Positions 18,272 through 52,506 of a DNA stretch of 52,506 bases are shown here, in pieces; within the stretch, counting starts at the first letter, position 1, and every line of letters starts with the position of its first letter. A model generated the notes under the pieces. That model did not search any database. It was not told where the DNA came from and saw only the letters and a list, made by a program, of their open reading frames with translations. Position numbers and translations under genes: made by a program. The DNA comes from an uncultured Oscillospiraceae bacterium (lineage in GTDB: Bacteria; Bacillota; Clostridia; Oscillospirales; Oscillospiraceae), in the NCBI GenBank assembly GCA_944385535.1, contig CALWXR010000012.1, forward strand, positions 1-52,506, in the 5' to 3' direction.

Positions 18272-18348
18272 TGGTGGACGATATAGGACTCGAACCTATG
18301 ACCTTCCGCACGTCAAGCGGATGCTCTAGCCAGCTGAGCTAATCGTCC
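18272..18348 (-). tRNA. tRNA-Val (anticodon GAC), CCA encoded
   Basis: Read on the minus strand, the acceptor GGACGAT (18342-18348) pairs with ATCGTCC before discriminator A and an encoded CCA (18272-18274). The D-arm AGCTCAGCTGGCTAGAGC, the anticodon arm TCCGC-TTGACGT-GCGGA with GAC at positions 34-36, and the T-arm with GGTTCGAGTCC are all canonical. The total is 77 nt including CCA. Confidence 0.96.
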
Positions 18349-29198: not shown

Positions 29199-29812
29199 TC
29201 CTCCCGGGTTAAGAAGGGCTTGAATATAGGCTCCACCAGCACCGACGCTGTCAGACAGGCAAAGGCGGGCAGGAAAAACAGCGGAAACAGATACCGCAGG
29301 CACAGATACATGGCCCCGCCTGTCAGCAGTCCCAAAAGCAATGTCCTGGGGAAATGGGCCAGGGACAGCAGCAGCGTGTTTTTCAGCAGCTGGGGCAGGG
29401 GGTTTTCAAACCGGGACAGCACCGCGAACATCAGGCTGAACATTCCCAGCGCCGCCACCGCCAGCAAAATCGCCAGACAAAAGAAGGCCCAGGAAAGGCT
29501 CCCCGCCGCGCACCCGTTCCAAACCCGGATCAGCCCCCAGCCGCCCCCCGCAAATGCCGACAACATCAGCAAGCCGGGCACGATCCCCGGCTTCAGGTTC
29601 CGGCGGAAGGAATGGAAAAAGCGCCCCCAGGAATGCTTGTCCCCCTGGCGAAAGCACCGGTAGGCCGCGTCATACAGCGCGGCCCAGGACGCGCCCAGGG
29701 TAACAAGCGGAAAGCACCCCAGCACCCAGAACAAACTGAGAAACACGCAGTCGGTGATCTGGGAAAGGGTAATCATCAGCGGATTGTCAGGGTCAAGCAG
29801 CTTTCGGAACAT
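29189..29812 (-). CDS. yesL: YesL (DUF624) family membrane protein
   Basis: A 207-residue protein starting MFRKLLDPDNPLMITLSQIT after CGGAGGTGCGCC. It has about five TM segments and the DUF624 core LFWVLGCFPLVTLGASWAALYDAAYR. YesL proteins accompany sugar ABC transporters and polysaccharide-degradation genes in Firmicutes but have no defined biochemical role. It has its own promoter next to the 435-bp repeat (29899-29927). Confidence 0.85.
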   Translation of the reverse strand: MFRKLLDPDNPLMITLSQITDCVFLSLFWVLGCFPLVTLGASWAALYDAAYRCFRQGDKHSWGRFFHSFRRNLKPGIVPGLLMLSAFAGGGWGLIRVWNGCAAGSLSWAFFCLAILLAVAALGMFSLMFAVLSRFENPLPQLLKNTLLLSLAHFPRTLLLGLLTGGAMYLCLRYLFPLFFLPAFACLTASVLVEPIFKPFLTREEAA

Positions 29813-29898
29813 GGCGCACCTCCGGGAAATGGATACCTGGTAAGGGGTCGGGGGGCATATTGGCATGCCGCCAAACCCCGGATTGAACCGGTAAGTTC

Positions 29899-29927
29899 AT
29901 TGTAGCACAAAGATCCGCATCTGTCAC
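29899..29927 (-). promoter_or_regulatory. Promoter of the YesL gene
   Basis: On the minus strand GTGACA (29922-29927), 17 bases, TACAAT (29899-29904). The repeat element begins 6 bases upstream. Confidence 0.55.
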
Positions 29928-29932
29928 CTGGG

Positions 29933-30369
29933 ATATAAAATTATATGCTTATCGGCTTGGTTCAGCAAAGACTCTGCCAGTGCAGGTGAAAGAGGAATGT
30001 TCGTTGGTTTCTCCGAGCTTCCCTGAAAAATGGCGGGCTTGAGGTTGGGTAGTGATTGGGGTGCTGTGCACCGATTCGGGCACCGTACCCATTCAGTGGT
30101 GAAAGGGTATACCGGCACTTCCCAAGTGCGCGCCGGGAGGGGTCCGGGGAGGGCGGCTCTGGCGCGGGAGCTGGCCAGCGTTCAGCGCCTCCCCGGTCGG
30201 CTTCTTTGCTTCCTTTCTTGCCGAGACAAGAAAGGAAGGCCCCCGGCAGGGTAGGGGAGCACCCGGACGAGGGATGCGCCAAACCTTTCCCGCATTTGCA
30301 TCATTCTTTCGGATAGAAAATCTGGTTTCTTGCGTAAGCTGAGTTAACCAGATAAGCATATAAAATTAT
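29933..30369. mobile_element. 435-bp structured repeat element, copy A
   Basis: The element is bounded by TTATATGCTTATC (29941-29953) and its exact complement GATAAGCATATAA (30351-30363). The string ATATAAAATTAT occurs at both edges (29933-29944 and 30358-30369), like a target duplication overlapping the inverted repeats. Inside are a four-run G-tract (30135-30153), a GCACTT/AAGTGC hairpin and a 12-bp hairpin CTTCCTTTCTTG/CAAGAAAGGAAG (30209-30238). Bases 30161-30262 are identical to 52226-52327. Short frames exist on both strands but none resembles a protein. The copy fills the gap between the divergent yesL and AGE promoters. Confidence 0.75.
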
Positions 30370-30384
30370 TTCTTAATAGGAAAT

Positions 30385-30416
30385 TTATTGAAATTTATTT
30401 TCAATAATGGTATGAT
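30385..30416 (+). promoter_or_regulatory. AGE promoter overlapped by a palindromic operator
   Basis: TTGAAA (30388-30393), 17 bases, TATGAT (30411-30416). The palindrome TTATTGAAA-N5-TTTCAATAA (30385-30407) covers the -35 box. TGAAA-centred palindromes suit RpiR-family repressors, and the rpiR gene is second in this transcript. Confidence 0.7.
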
Positions 30417-30454
30417 GATAGTATCATTAAAAATCAAATGGGAGGGGTTACCTT

Positions 30455-31645
30455 ATGGATCGCGAAAAAATGATTGCTCAGCGGCAATGGGTTCAGGAGC
30501 AGCTGAAAAATGTGGCCGACTTCTGGCTGAAAAACGGCATGGATCCCGTTCACGGAGGCATCTATACCTGCCTGGACCGGCAGGGAAAGATTTACTCCAC
30601 CGACAAGAGCGTATGGATGCAGGGCCGGTGCGGCTGGACCTACGCCTACCTGTGCCATGTGTACGGGGTGAAAGAGGAATGGCTGGCGGCTTCCAAGAGC
30701 TGCATCGACTTTTTGGAAAACCACTGCGTCAACCACGAGGCCGGCGGACGGCTGTACTTTACCGTCACCGAGGACGGTCAGCCTCTGCGCCAGCGCCGCT
30801 ACTGCTTCTCCGAAGCCTTCTACTGCATCGCCAACGGAGAGTACTACGGAATCACCGGAAAAAAAGAGCACCTGGAGCGTGCCCGCCGGGCCTACGATAT
30901 GTACTGGAATTTGAATCACGGCATGGCCGATCCTACGGGCATGGGCCCCAAGTCCACCCGCCCGGGCCGGAGTCTGGGCATTCCCATGATCCTTTTAAAC
31001 GTCACCGGCGTATTGAAGCGGGTGGATCCGGAGCGGAAGGAAATTTATGACGCCCGGGCCAAGGAATGCGTGGAGGATATCTTCCGCTACCATGTAAAGC
31101 CGGAGCTGGGCTGCACCTTGGAAAACGTAGCCCCGGACGGCACGCCCCGCCTGAACATCACCGAGGGCCGGATGGTGAACCCCGGCCACGACATTGAGTG
31201 CAGCTGGTTCTTAATGGACTACGCCAACGACTCAGGCGACGCCGAGCTGCATAAAAAGGCGGTTAACGTATTTGACATGGCCTTTACCAAGGGTTGGGAT
31301 CCGGAATACGGCGGCATTCTGTACTTCATGGACTGCCTGGGCAATCCCCCGGAGGCCTATGAGCACGACATGAAGCTGTGGTGGCCCCACAACGAGGCCC
31401 TGATCGCCTCCCTGATGATCTACCGGGACACGGGAGACGAGCGGTATTTAGGCTACTTCGATCAGATCCTTGCCTACTGCCAGACCTATTTCGCCGACGA
31501 ATACGGCGAATGGTACGGGTATCTGCGCCGGGACGGCAAGCCCACCCAGCCCGCCTGCAAGGGCAGCACCTTCAAAGGCCCCTTCCACGTGCCCCGCTGC
31601 CTGATCCTGGTGGATCAGATGATGGGGCAGATCCTGGACCGGTAA
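30455..31645 (+). CDS. AGE family epimerase, probable N-acylglucosamine 2-epimerase
   Basis: A 396-residue (alpha/alpha)6-barrel protein. Family segments: GWTYAYLCHVYG, RRYCFSEAFYCIANGEYY, RMVNPGHDIECSWFLMDYA with the catalytic-type His, DPEYGGILYFMD, KLWWPHNEALIA with His and HVPRCLI. It would interconvert N-acetylmannosamine and N-acetylglucosamine, replacing the NanE (ManNAc-6-P epimerase) step, as in the Bacteroides nan pathway. The start follows GGGAGGGGTTACCTT. It is co-transcribed with the RpiR regulator. Confidence 0.92.
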   Translation: MDREKMIAQRQWVQEQLKNVADFWLKNGMDPVHGGIYTCLDRQGKIYSTDKSVWMQGRCGWTYAYLCHVYGVKEEWLAASKSCIDFLENHCVNHEAGGRLYFTVTEDGQPLRQRRYCFSEAFYCIANGEYYGITGKKEHLERARRAYDMYWNLNHGMADPTGMGPKSTRPGRSLGIPMILLNVTGVLKRVDPERKEIYDARAKECVEDIFRYHVKPELGCTLENVAPDGTPRLNITEGRMVNPGHDIECSWFLMDYANDSGDAELHKKAVNVFDMAFTKGWDPEYGGILYFMDCLGNPPEAYEHDMKLWWPHNEALIASLMIYRDTGDERYLGYFDQILAYCQTYFADEYGEWYGYLRRDGKPTQPACKGSTFKGPFHVPRCLILVDQMMGQILDR

Positions 31646-51995: not shown

Positions 51996-52437
51996 TTATG
52001 TGGTTATCGACTGATTCAGCAAAGAATTTACAAACTCCCAAACGGAATGCGGCCCATTGGTTCCACCGCAAGCAGAAAGCAATCTCAAGGCTGGGCAGTG
52101 ATTCGGATGCTGTGTACCGATTCGGGCACAGTACCCATTCAGCGGTGAAAGGGTATACCGGCACCTACCAAGTGCGCGCCGGGAGGGGTCCGGGGAGGGC
52201 GGGCGGCGAATCGCCGCGGATGATGGGCGCGGGAGCTGGCCAGCGTTCAGCGCCTCCCCGGTCGGCTTCTTTGCTTCCTTTCTTGCCGAGACAAGAAAGG
52301 AAGGCCCCCGGCAGGGTAGGGGAGCACTTAGACGCGGAACCAGCCAAACCCTTGCGCCAATTTCCCTTTTGTTTCCCAGCAGCTGGATCAATATTTATAC
52401 CAAGCTGAGTAAACACGATAAGCAATTTTTTTATATG
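51996..52437. mobile_element. 435-bp structured repeat element, copy B
   Basis: Left end TTTATGTGGTTATCGACTGA then TTCAGC; right end AAGCTGAGTAAACACGATAAGC. The G-tract is at 52181-52199 and the 12-bp hairpin at 52274-52303. Bases 52226-52327 are identical to copy A. Relative to A it carries an extra GC-rich hairpin (GGCGGCGAATCGCCGC) at about 52201-52216, and its first 80 bases differ. No protein-coding frame is recognisable. Confidence 0.75.
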
Positions 52438-52506
52438 CTTATCGACTTTGTTCAGCAAAGGCTCAGCCAGTGCCGGTGAGAGAGGAATGTTCGTTGGTTC
52501 CTCCGA
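52432..52506. mobile_element. 435-bp structured repeat element, copy C (left end only)
   Basis: From TATATGCTTATCGACTTTG to the window end this matches the first 75 bases of copy A (29942-30016) closely (CAGCAAAG, GAGGAATGTTCGTTGG, CTCCGA). It abuts the right end of copy B, so two copies are tandem. Confidence 0.75.

Follow-up and report, generated by a model that had tools for sequence, protein, structure and literature searches.

A non-autonomous IS1595-type MITE of an uncultured Oscillospiraceae bacterium and the pseudoknot module that it appears to have captured

The repeated element studied here is, in our view quite probably, a non-autonomous IS1595-type MITE with a captured structured module (an arm, an H-type pseudoknot and a triple helix), an assessment that takes in our guess that the module acts as RNA in a 3'-structure. 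What argues for this is comparison of sequences: the anatomy of the MITE, its copy number, a partner insertion sequence, covariation of the pseudoknot loop with bases upstream and of the linker with the stem, and strand specificity.

The window (the whole stretch of 52,506 nucleotides that was analysed) corresponds to contig C12 of a draft genome that we call G000 and that comprises 121 contigs with 2.85 Mb in all; other genomes are likewise numbered G, contigs within a genome C, and loci L. The sole tRNA found in the window is tRNA-Val (gac), at 18272-18348. A preliminary description, made from the letters of the window, had reported a family of elements with terminal inverted repeats (TIRs) and a structured core, and all of these (repeats, multiple copies and core) are present in the sequence where it had placed them. 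The occurrence of ATATAAAATTAT at both edges of copy A, also reported, is real, and the boundary can now be refined, as an 8-bp target duplication lies inside that sequence and the element proper occupies 29944-30360. The exact identity over 102 nt between copies A and B (30161-30262 and 52226-52327) cannot be extended on either side, and copy B, whose left segment differs, falls into a subfamily with L023 and L051, which have a similar one. The features are as follows.

29936-29943, no strand: left 8-bp target duplication of copy A, TAAAATTA, identical to 30361-30368
29944-29968, + strand: left TIR of copy A; shares 20/25 positions with the left and 19/25 with the right IS1595 end, and 18/25 with the right TIR of copy A
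29944-30360, + strand: copy A, IS1595-type MITE of 417 bp with imperfect 25-bp TIRs
30144-30196, + strand: arm P1/H1 (outer strands 30144-30152 and 30188-30196), a perfect 9-base inverted repeat
30197-30200, + strand: S1 5' strand, TCGG, predicted to pair with 30221-30224
30201-30208, + strand: L1 linker CTTCTTTG, putative third strand in the S2 major groove (parallel U.A / C.G match to the purine strand)
30209-30220, + strand: S2 5' strand CTTCCTTTCTTG, perfect 12-bp stem with 30227-30238
30221-30224, + strand: S1 3' strand, CCGA, in the S2 loop
30227-30238, + strand: S2 3' purine strand CAAGAAAGGAAG
30239-30262, + strand: H3, the GC-rich 3' segment that closes the 102-nt block, identical in copies A and B
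30336-30360, - strand: right TIR of copy A, 19/25 identical to each IS1595 end
30361-30368, no strand: right 8-bp target duplication of copy A, TAAAATTA
51997-52425 (approximate), + strand: copy B of the MITE, in which the left segment is of another type and an insertion resembles that of L020-L022; 5/8 agreement between the flanks
52262-52303, + strand: pseudoknot of copy B, same sequence as that of copy A
52434-52506, + strand: copy C, start only, ending with the contig

The MITE family and its likely mover

A DNA search of the own genome, a step that the preliminary description had proposed, located 45 places, so further copies do exist; at 22 of these the match covers at least 399 of 437 bases. 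The 22 aligned copies have sharp ends, beyond which the flanks are unrelated. Paired ends were found at 23 of 49 loci scanned, and 17 of the 23 have a perfect 8-bp target duplication, the kind of fixed-length duplication that had been suggested as a mark of mobility (alternative end pairings in L018, 4/8, and L022, 1/8, were dropped from this count, and L061 and L051 were kept as paired-end loci). At the remaining six, agreement is at 7 (L007), 6 (L003), 5 (copy B), 4 (L011), 2 (L061) and 1 (L051) of 8 positions; left and right flanks taken from different copies, as a control, agree on average at 3.0 of 8. Copy C is partial because the contig ends there. Several other contigs of G000 also terminate 76-77 bases inside the element, and since such ends look like assembly breaks, the genome probably has more full copies than were counted.

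Some loci are arranged in unusual ways. At G000:C45:22863-23364 (L002 and L066), two copies lie in direct tandem with one common spacer, which equals the target duplication, as though the target duplication of one copy had served the other as an insertion or recombination site. L003 (G000:C20:3899-4319) and L006 (G000:C24:3009-3443) have one flank in common, inverted, and different flanks on the other side, which suggests recombination between copies or an assembly join. In other genomes, ends matching those of the MITE occur in G002 as well as in G005 and G036, and in G031 two elements of 315 and 331 bases (L069 on C159 and L070 on C251) have both ends as in the MITE and another, pseudoknot-free interior.

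The termini were also compared with insertion sequences of the same genome, another proposal of the preliminary description. A terminal-sequence search found a 988-bp element (G000:C1:955-1942) with similar ends (19-20 of 25 positions identical between the MITE ends and each of its own) and its own 8-bp duplication, AATGTTTA. Its transposase matches Pfam PF12762 (2.7e-20) and PF12760 (2.1e-12) and the NCBIfam IS1595-family model NF033547 (3.2e-51). The similar ends and the 8-bp duplication, both in the same genome, make an IS1595-family element the likely mover of the MITE there. The element can thus be assigned to an IS family, which the preliminary description had been unable to do, whereas its failure to match a named RNA still holds, no bacterial Rfam family matching the window element.

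Further transposase homologues are an open one (76%) on C29, a broken one on C80, a fragment on C92 and one of 87% in G018; the C80 locus (L252 and L253, G000:C80:7591-8449) is a diverged IS1595 copy with a broken transposase frame. At E<=1e-20, 35 of the 37 genomes searched, including G007 and G014, gave no IS1595 transposase; where congeners have similar ends, their mover is absent, diverged or unassembled. IS1595 insertion sequences and the MITEs derived from them have the same type of ends, 8-bp target duplications and a PF12762/PF12760 transposase in the same genome. The window element differs from the insertion sequences in holding, where a gene would be, a structured module of other origin. 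A first step in its history would then be movement in trans of a 417-bp element, its IS1595-type ends and duplications being evident from its anatomy, by an IS1595 transposase that would recognize the similar 25-bp ends and make 8-bp target duplications.

The structured core: arm, pseudoknot and apparent triple helix

The element has a low predicted fold energy (z = -4.1 for the + strand and -4.9 for the - strand, 0/100 shuffles being as low). Covariation supports a fold of the module into arm P1 and an H-type pseudoknot in which the S2 loop would pair with bases upstream. When flanks were compared across phyla, that loop proved complementary to the bases directly before TTCTTTG, the sequences differing by group: TCGG/CCGA in the window, and TCGC/GCGA, CCTG/CAGG, GTGGC/GCCAC, GTTCC/GGAAC, GCAG/CTGC and TGTG/CACA among the other pairs, with 48 different S1 strings recorded and G-U pairs occurring in S1. 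For 108 distinct sequences the mean best run of pairs was 4.35, against 3.04+-0.07 for shuffled loops (300 shuffles, highest 3.21), and 80% of sequences had a run of at least 4 (21% when shuffled). Pairing in one fixed register holds in 59.7% of cells, a low figure that reflects register shifts between groups, hence the floating register of the shuffle test. A later independent set from Nitrospinota and Gastranaerophilales (37 hits, giving 30 distinct sequences; one duplicate, L294, was left out) supported S1 weakly, at 3.82 against 3.46+-0.12 (500 shuffles, highest 3.84).

The outer stem of the arm covaries among 71 distinct Oscillospiraceae copies (6.65 against 5.54+-0.10; 200 shuffles, highest 5.87; this test, like those of S1 and the linker, ignores relatedness). 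By eye, a GC-rich hairpin similar to the one that follows S2 is seen in Betaproteobacteria and not in Gastranaerophilales; in both groups the pseudoknot appears, again by eye, as the end of a unit of ~270-290 nt, the unit's own arm enclosing TGTCTGA..GAGTTT, a loop that may form tandem G.A pairs.

Aligned in parallel with the purine strand CAAGAAAG, the linker TTCTTTG places T against A and C against G, the arrangement expected in a pyrimidine-motif triple helix; with UUCUUU set beside AAGAAA, on the purine side of the 12-bp stem, U.A-U and C+.G-C triplets would result. Where the purine strand deviates, the linker in many cases follows it: AAGAAAAG occurs with TTCTTTTG in Variovorax or with TTCTTTTC in G026, AGAAGAAAG with TCTTCTTTG in G313, CAAAAAAT with TTTTTTG in G282, AAAGAAG with TTTCTTG in Zoogloea, and CAAAAG with GTTTTG in G434. 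In an unpicked set of 107 distinct sense hits the match was 6.07, against 5.79+-0.03 for shuffled linkers (500 shuffles, highest 5.89), and for the 45 that lack the standard purine strand it was 6.00 against 5.48+-0.06 (2000 shuffles, highest 5.71); of these 45, 14 fit their own linker better than the standard linker, two (L088 and L197) fit it worse, and for 29 the two were equal. A hand-picked set of 29 sequences, one per genome and class, gave better matches in 20, worse in none and equal ones in nine, with L220, L268, L088, L197:1501, L197:2066, L255, L256, L227, L239, L271 and the G537 copies L223, L226 and L245 omitted. Because this set was hand-picked, we place the claim on the unpicked test.

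A first automatic test, in which the strand was chosen by S1 alone, was negative: in 25 non-canonical hairpins, many of them wrong strands, the own linker scored 3.92 and shuffled ones 3.60+-0.13 (highest 4.12), with 4.68 for a substituted canonical linker. The later independent set (6.13 against 6.08+-0.03) is almost uninformative here, since the linker hardly varies in it. The match is specific to one strand, the opposite strand of the same hairpins scoring 3.1 against 5.4. From these comparisons the linker and the S2 purine strand apparently form a U·A-U/C·G-C major-groove triple helix; to our knowledge, few natural pyrimidine-motif triple helices are backed by comparative sequence evidence. 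As a second step of the proposed mechanism, the cargo would keep its pseudoknot and apparent triple helix on one strand only, as the covariation suggests.

Distribution and separability of the module

The exact pattern was found in 56 stretches of genome_contigs, 44 of them from uncultured Oscillospiraceae and the other 12 from Denitromonas, Zoogloea or Zoogloeaceae, a Proteobacteria MAG, Gastranaerophilales and a Nitrospinota MAG. A covariance model was then built from the 52-nt region; as it was seeded by the exact pattern, the invariance of its centre is partly a matter of ascertainment. At E<=1e-3 it matched 70 of 299 sampled genomes in the phylum of a Zoogloea genome and three of 299 from the own phylum (all three multicopy), and at E<=1e-4 it matched 15 of 40 genomes of the own genus, 19 of 146 in the phylum of a Gastranaerophilales genome and one of 77 in that of the Nitrospinota MAG (33 matches, some of them reverse-strand echoes). 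We take the three other phyla to be Pseudomonadota, Cyanobacteriota and Nitrospinota. In the own-genus search G000 gave 55 matches, including reverse-strand echoes of the palindromic stem, and 28 full-length sense places. Many module-bearing genomes are draft MAGs, so contamination is possible in single cases. It seems that the module is probably a widespread one, of structured RNA or of single-stranded DNA.

A phage origin was rejected: with the element as query, phage records gave no match at 1e-5, the best 40 of the 206 records at E<=10 had a query coverage of at most 37%, and the exact pattern occurred 0 times in viral_contigs. Among plasmids there was one record at 1e-5 (Iodobacter) and twelve at E<=10, the pseudoknot being visible in records of Iodobacter, Variovorax and Comamonas. 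The element had no match in a collection of 5,426 E. coli genomes. In Denitromonas G060 (L162, L168, L182 and L185) another repeat, GGCGGGTT..AACCCGCC with GTAGGG motifs, often precedes the pseudoknot unit.

Closer relatives bear on how module and MITE belong together. When 60 genomes were searched as relatives, matches were found in 13, namely G000 and 12 further genomes of its genus; among the matches listed the whole element occurs only in G000, the other genomes having the core alone or the ends alone, and a whole-length alignment of relatives gave nothing meaningful outside the core. In ten congeners either TIR was found at none of 25 distinct pseudoknots (330 bases upstream and 230 downstream, some loci being cut by contig ends), while both TIRs accompany five of seven distinct pseudoknots in G000 and two of four in G007, and one left TIR was found among three in G014. 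The reverse case is provided by six loci in G005, G031 and G036 with matching ends and no pseudoknot pattern. Since congeners have the core without these TIRs, and the same ends occur elsewhere without the core, the sequences argue that the core is a module captured by the MITE and separable from it.

Known families, alternatives and possible role

Neither in the window nor at the other loci scanned did an Rfam match cover the pseudoknot. In the window nothing bacterial reached the gathering score or relaxed E-values, the three relaxed hits being to eukaryotic families far below threshold. The TwoAYGGAY model (RF01731) gave no match to the window at gathering score and none at E<=5 over 29800-30500; by eye, the two AYGGAY-loop hairpins are absent from the window element, whose arm offers a single loop position of that kind, GCGGGAGC. 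At relaxed E-values, TwoAYGGAY lies 5' of the pseudoknot in three of 38 distinct loci, a fraction that does not give the share of TwoAYGGAY RNAs with a pseudoknot, as the loci were chosen for the latter: immediately before it in L204, twice (69.0 and 64.2 bits), and in L191 (46.0), and 47 bases 5' of it in L211 (40.7, the gathering score being 43). Both L204 matches (945-1105 and 1354-1515, ~250 bases apart) end inside the start of the respective pseudoknots at 1103 and 1514. TwoAYGGAY thus shares the pseudoknot 3' of it in some loci, and its model stops matching where the pseudoknot starts. In a table of PMC2864571, TwoAYGGAY is listed for human gut, gamma-Proteobacteria and Clostridiales.

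Pseudoknots in which a pyrimidine-rich linker lies along the stem as a triple helix occur in telomerase RNA and the SAM-II riboswitch. Ours differs in having many copies per genome, on mobile DNA, and in that no ligand or partner is known for it. A search of the open literature, subscription journals and supplements lying outside its scope, found no earlier description of the pseudoknot, and searches with its sequence strings listed no paper that we judged, from the listing, to be on bacteria. An earlier description is possible, for example among the 250 mobile or repeat candidates mentioned in PMC11109978. As far as its description in PMC3110155 goes, BRE, the Beta-proteobacterial repeat element known from Bordetella, is a GC-rich repeat of Betaproteobacteria that reaches 29 copies in a genome and was first noticed in a region with expressed sRNAs; compared by description alone, its 75-91 bp, often in tandem, stand against ~270-290 nt for the Betaproteobacterial pseudoknot unit, and the two may or may not be the same. 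We give the pseudoknot module a fair chance of being a distinct class.

The strongest alternative is that the module works as single-stranded DNA, a hairpin or triplex recognized by a transposase, recombinase or replication protein in the manner of REP sequences or IS200/IS605 ends, its repetition being a sign of that mobility. Pyrimidine-motif triplexes can form in DNA also, and the module is repetitive, patchy across phyla and specific to one strand; close direct and inverted copies in G035 and G022 resemble REP clusters. In G035 (L096, L033 and L045) such copies, some ~185 bases apart, are of subtypes TCGG/CCGA and CCTG/CAGG. Nevertheless, we regard this alternative as unlikely, given the G-U pairs of S1 and the RNA family TwoAYGGAY that runs into the pseudoknot twice in L204. 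A REP/RAYT system was rejected for G000, G007, G014 and G022, all module-bearing, where PF01797 (Y1 transposase) had 0 matches; the domain is, though, present in module-bearing G004, G005 and G017. The GTAG and CGTC REP superfamilies are described, in the relevant part of PMC3733652, as palindromic repeats of several phyla, mostly between unidirectional and convergent ORFs. In comparison with them the window module is longer (pseudoknot and linker match) and lacks a GTAG/CGTC tag (by eye, there is no GTAG tag at the S2 flanks), and its own genome is without a Y1 transposase.

That the element is a plain MITE, with a functionless core made uniform by recent spread or gene conversion, seems to us improbable. 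The intact duplications do indicate recent movement, and gene conversion could hold a central tract uniform. However, recent spread alone would leave the arms as uniform as the core, and the 22 copies, compared in pairs, have an average identity of 0.99 at 30161-30262, 0.95 at 30123-30160 and 0.85-0.91 in the arms; moreover, the same structure recurs with compensating changes in other genera and phyla.

A role as a CsrA sponge, in which GGA-containing hairpin loops (here GCGGGAGC) would titrate CsrA, has been proposed for TwoAYGGAY (PMC4333381); the arm of the window element does have a CGGGAG loop, and loci that bear TwoAYGGAY have loops of the CAGGGAUG type. We rejected it as very improbable, because PF02599 had no match in 25 same-genus genomes, G000 among them (the control was positive in E. 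coli, B. subtilis and T. maritima; a remote CsrA might escape the model). It is just as improbable that the core encodes a small protein: several frames are open for 64-106 codons across the element, but, in line with the preliminary description, which had seen no sensible coding frame, none is open through all eight stretches compared (324-500 bases, from different groups), and sequence changes follow pairing.

Returning to the captured RNA module, the preliminary suggestion of a functional RNA or protein-binding structure mobilized as a MITE is supported, by the ends, 8-bp duplications and IS1595 partner on the one hand and by covariation in unrelated genomes on the other; for the 'functional' status of the core the support is that of conservation and covariation in the sequences. 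As a third step, the acting strand would be RNA rather than single-stranded DNA, as the G-U pairs of S1 and the Rfam RNA that in places runs into the pseudoknot suggest. The fourth step is a guess, that the module forms a compact barrier which resists exonuclease or polymerase and is located at or close to the 3' ends of those transcripts that enter it. We offer this job tentatively, as a guess that is more doubtful than not. Such a 3' structure would make the repeat tolerable or mildly useful to its hosts, and so aid its spread. Gene context fits the idea loosely: among 42 loci given (crude ORF calls), a copy was placed in 41 and both neighbours in 31, 15 being between convergent and two between divergent genes, and 13 of the 41 copies fall inside a called ORF; copy A itself lies between divergent genes, not at a 3' end.

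It is conceivable, and in our estimation a little less doubtful than this particular job, that the module represents a pan-phylum class of repetitive RNA outside Rfam, with a pseudoknot and a pyrimidine-motif triple helix active in host transcripts, of which TwoAYGGAY would be one 5'-extended branch and which would have spread, inside genomes and from one to another, by riding unrelated transposons (here, the IS1595 MITE). If the module has kept its triple helix in four phyla, often in multiple copies, it would constitute a large natural data set on how triple helices work and evolve. TwoAYGGAY RNAs, themselves unexplained, would gain in the pseudoknot a candidate 3' domain, and the capture of a structured module by a MITE makes the role of repetitive structured elements in bacteria directly testable.
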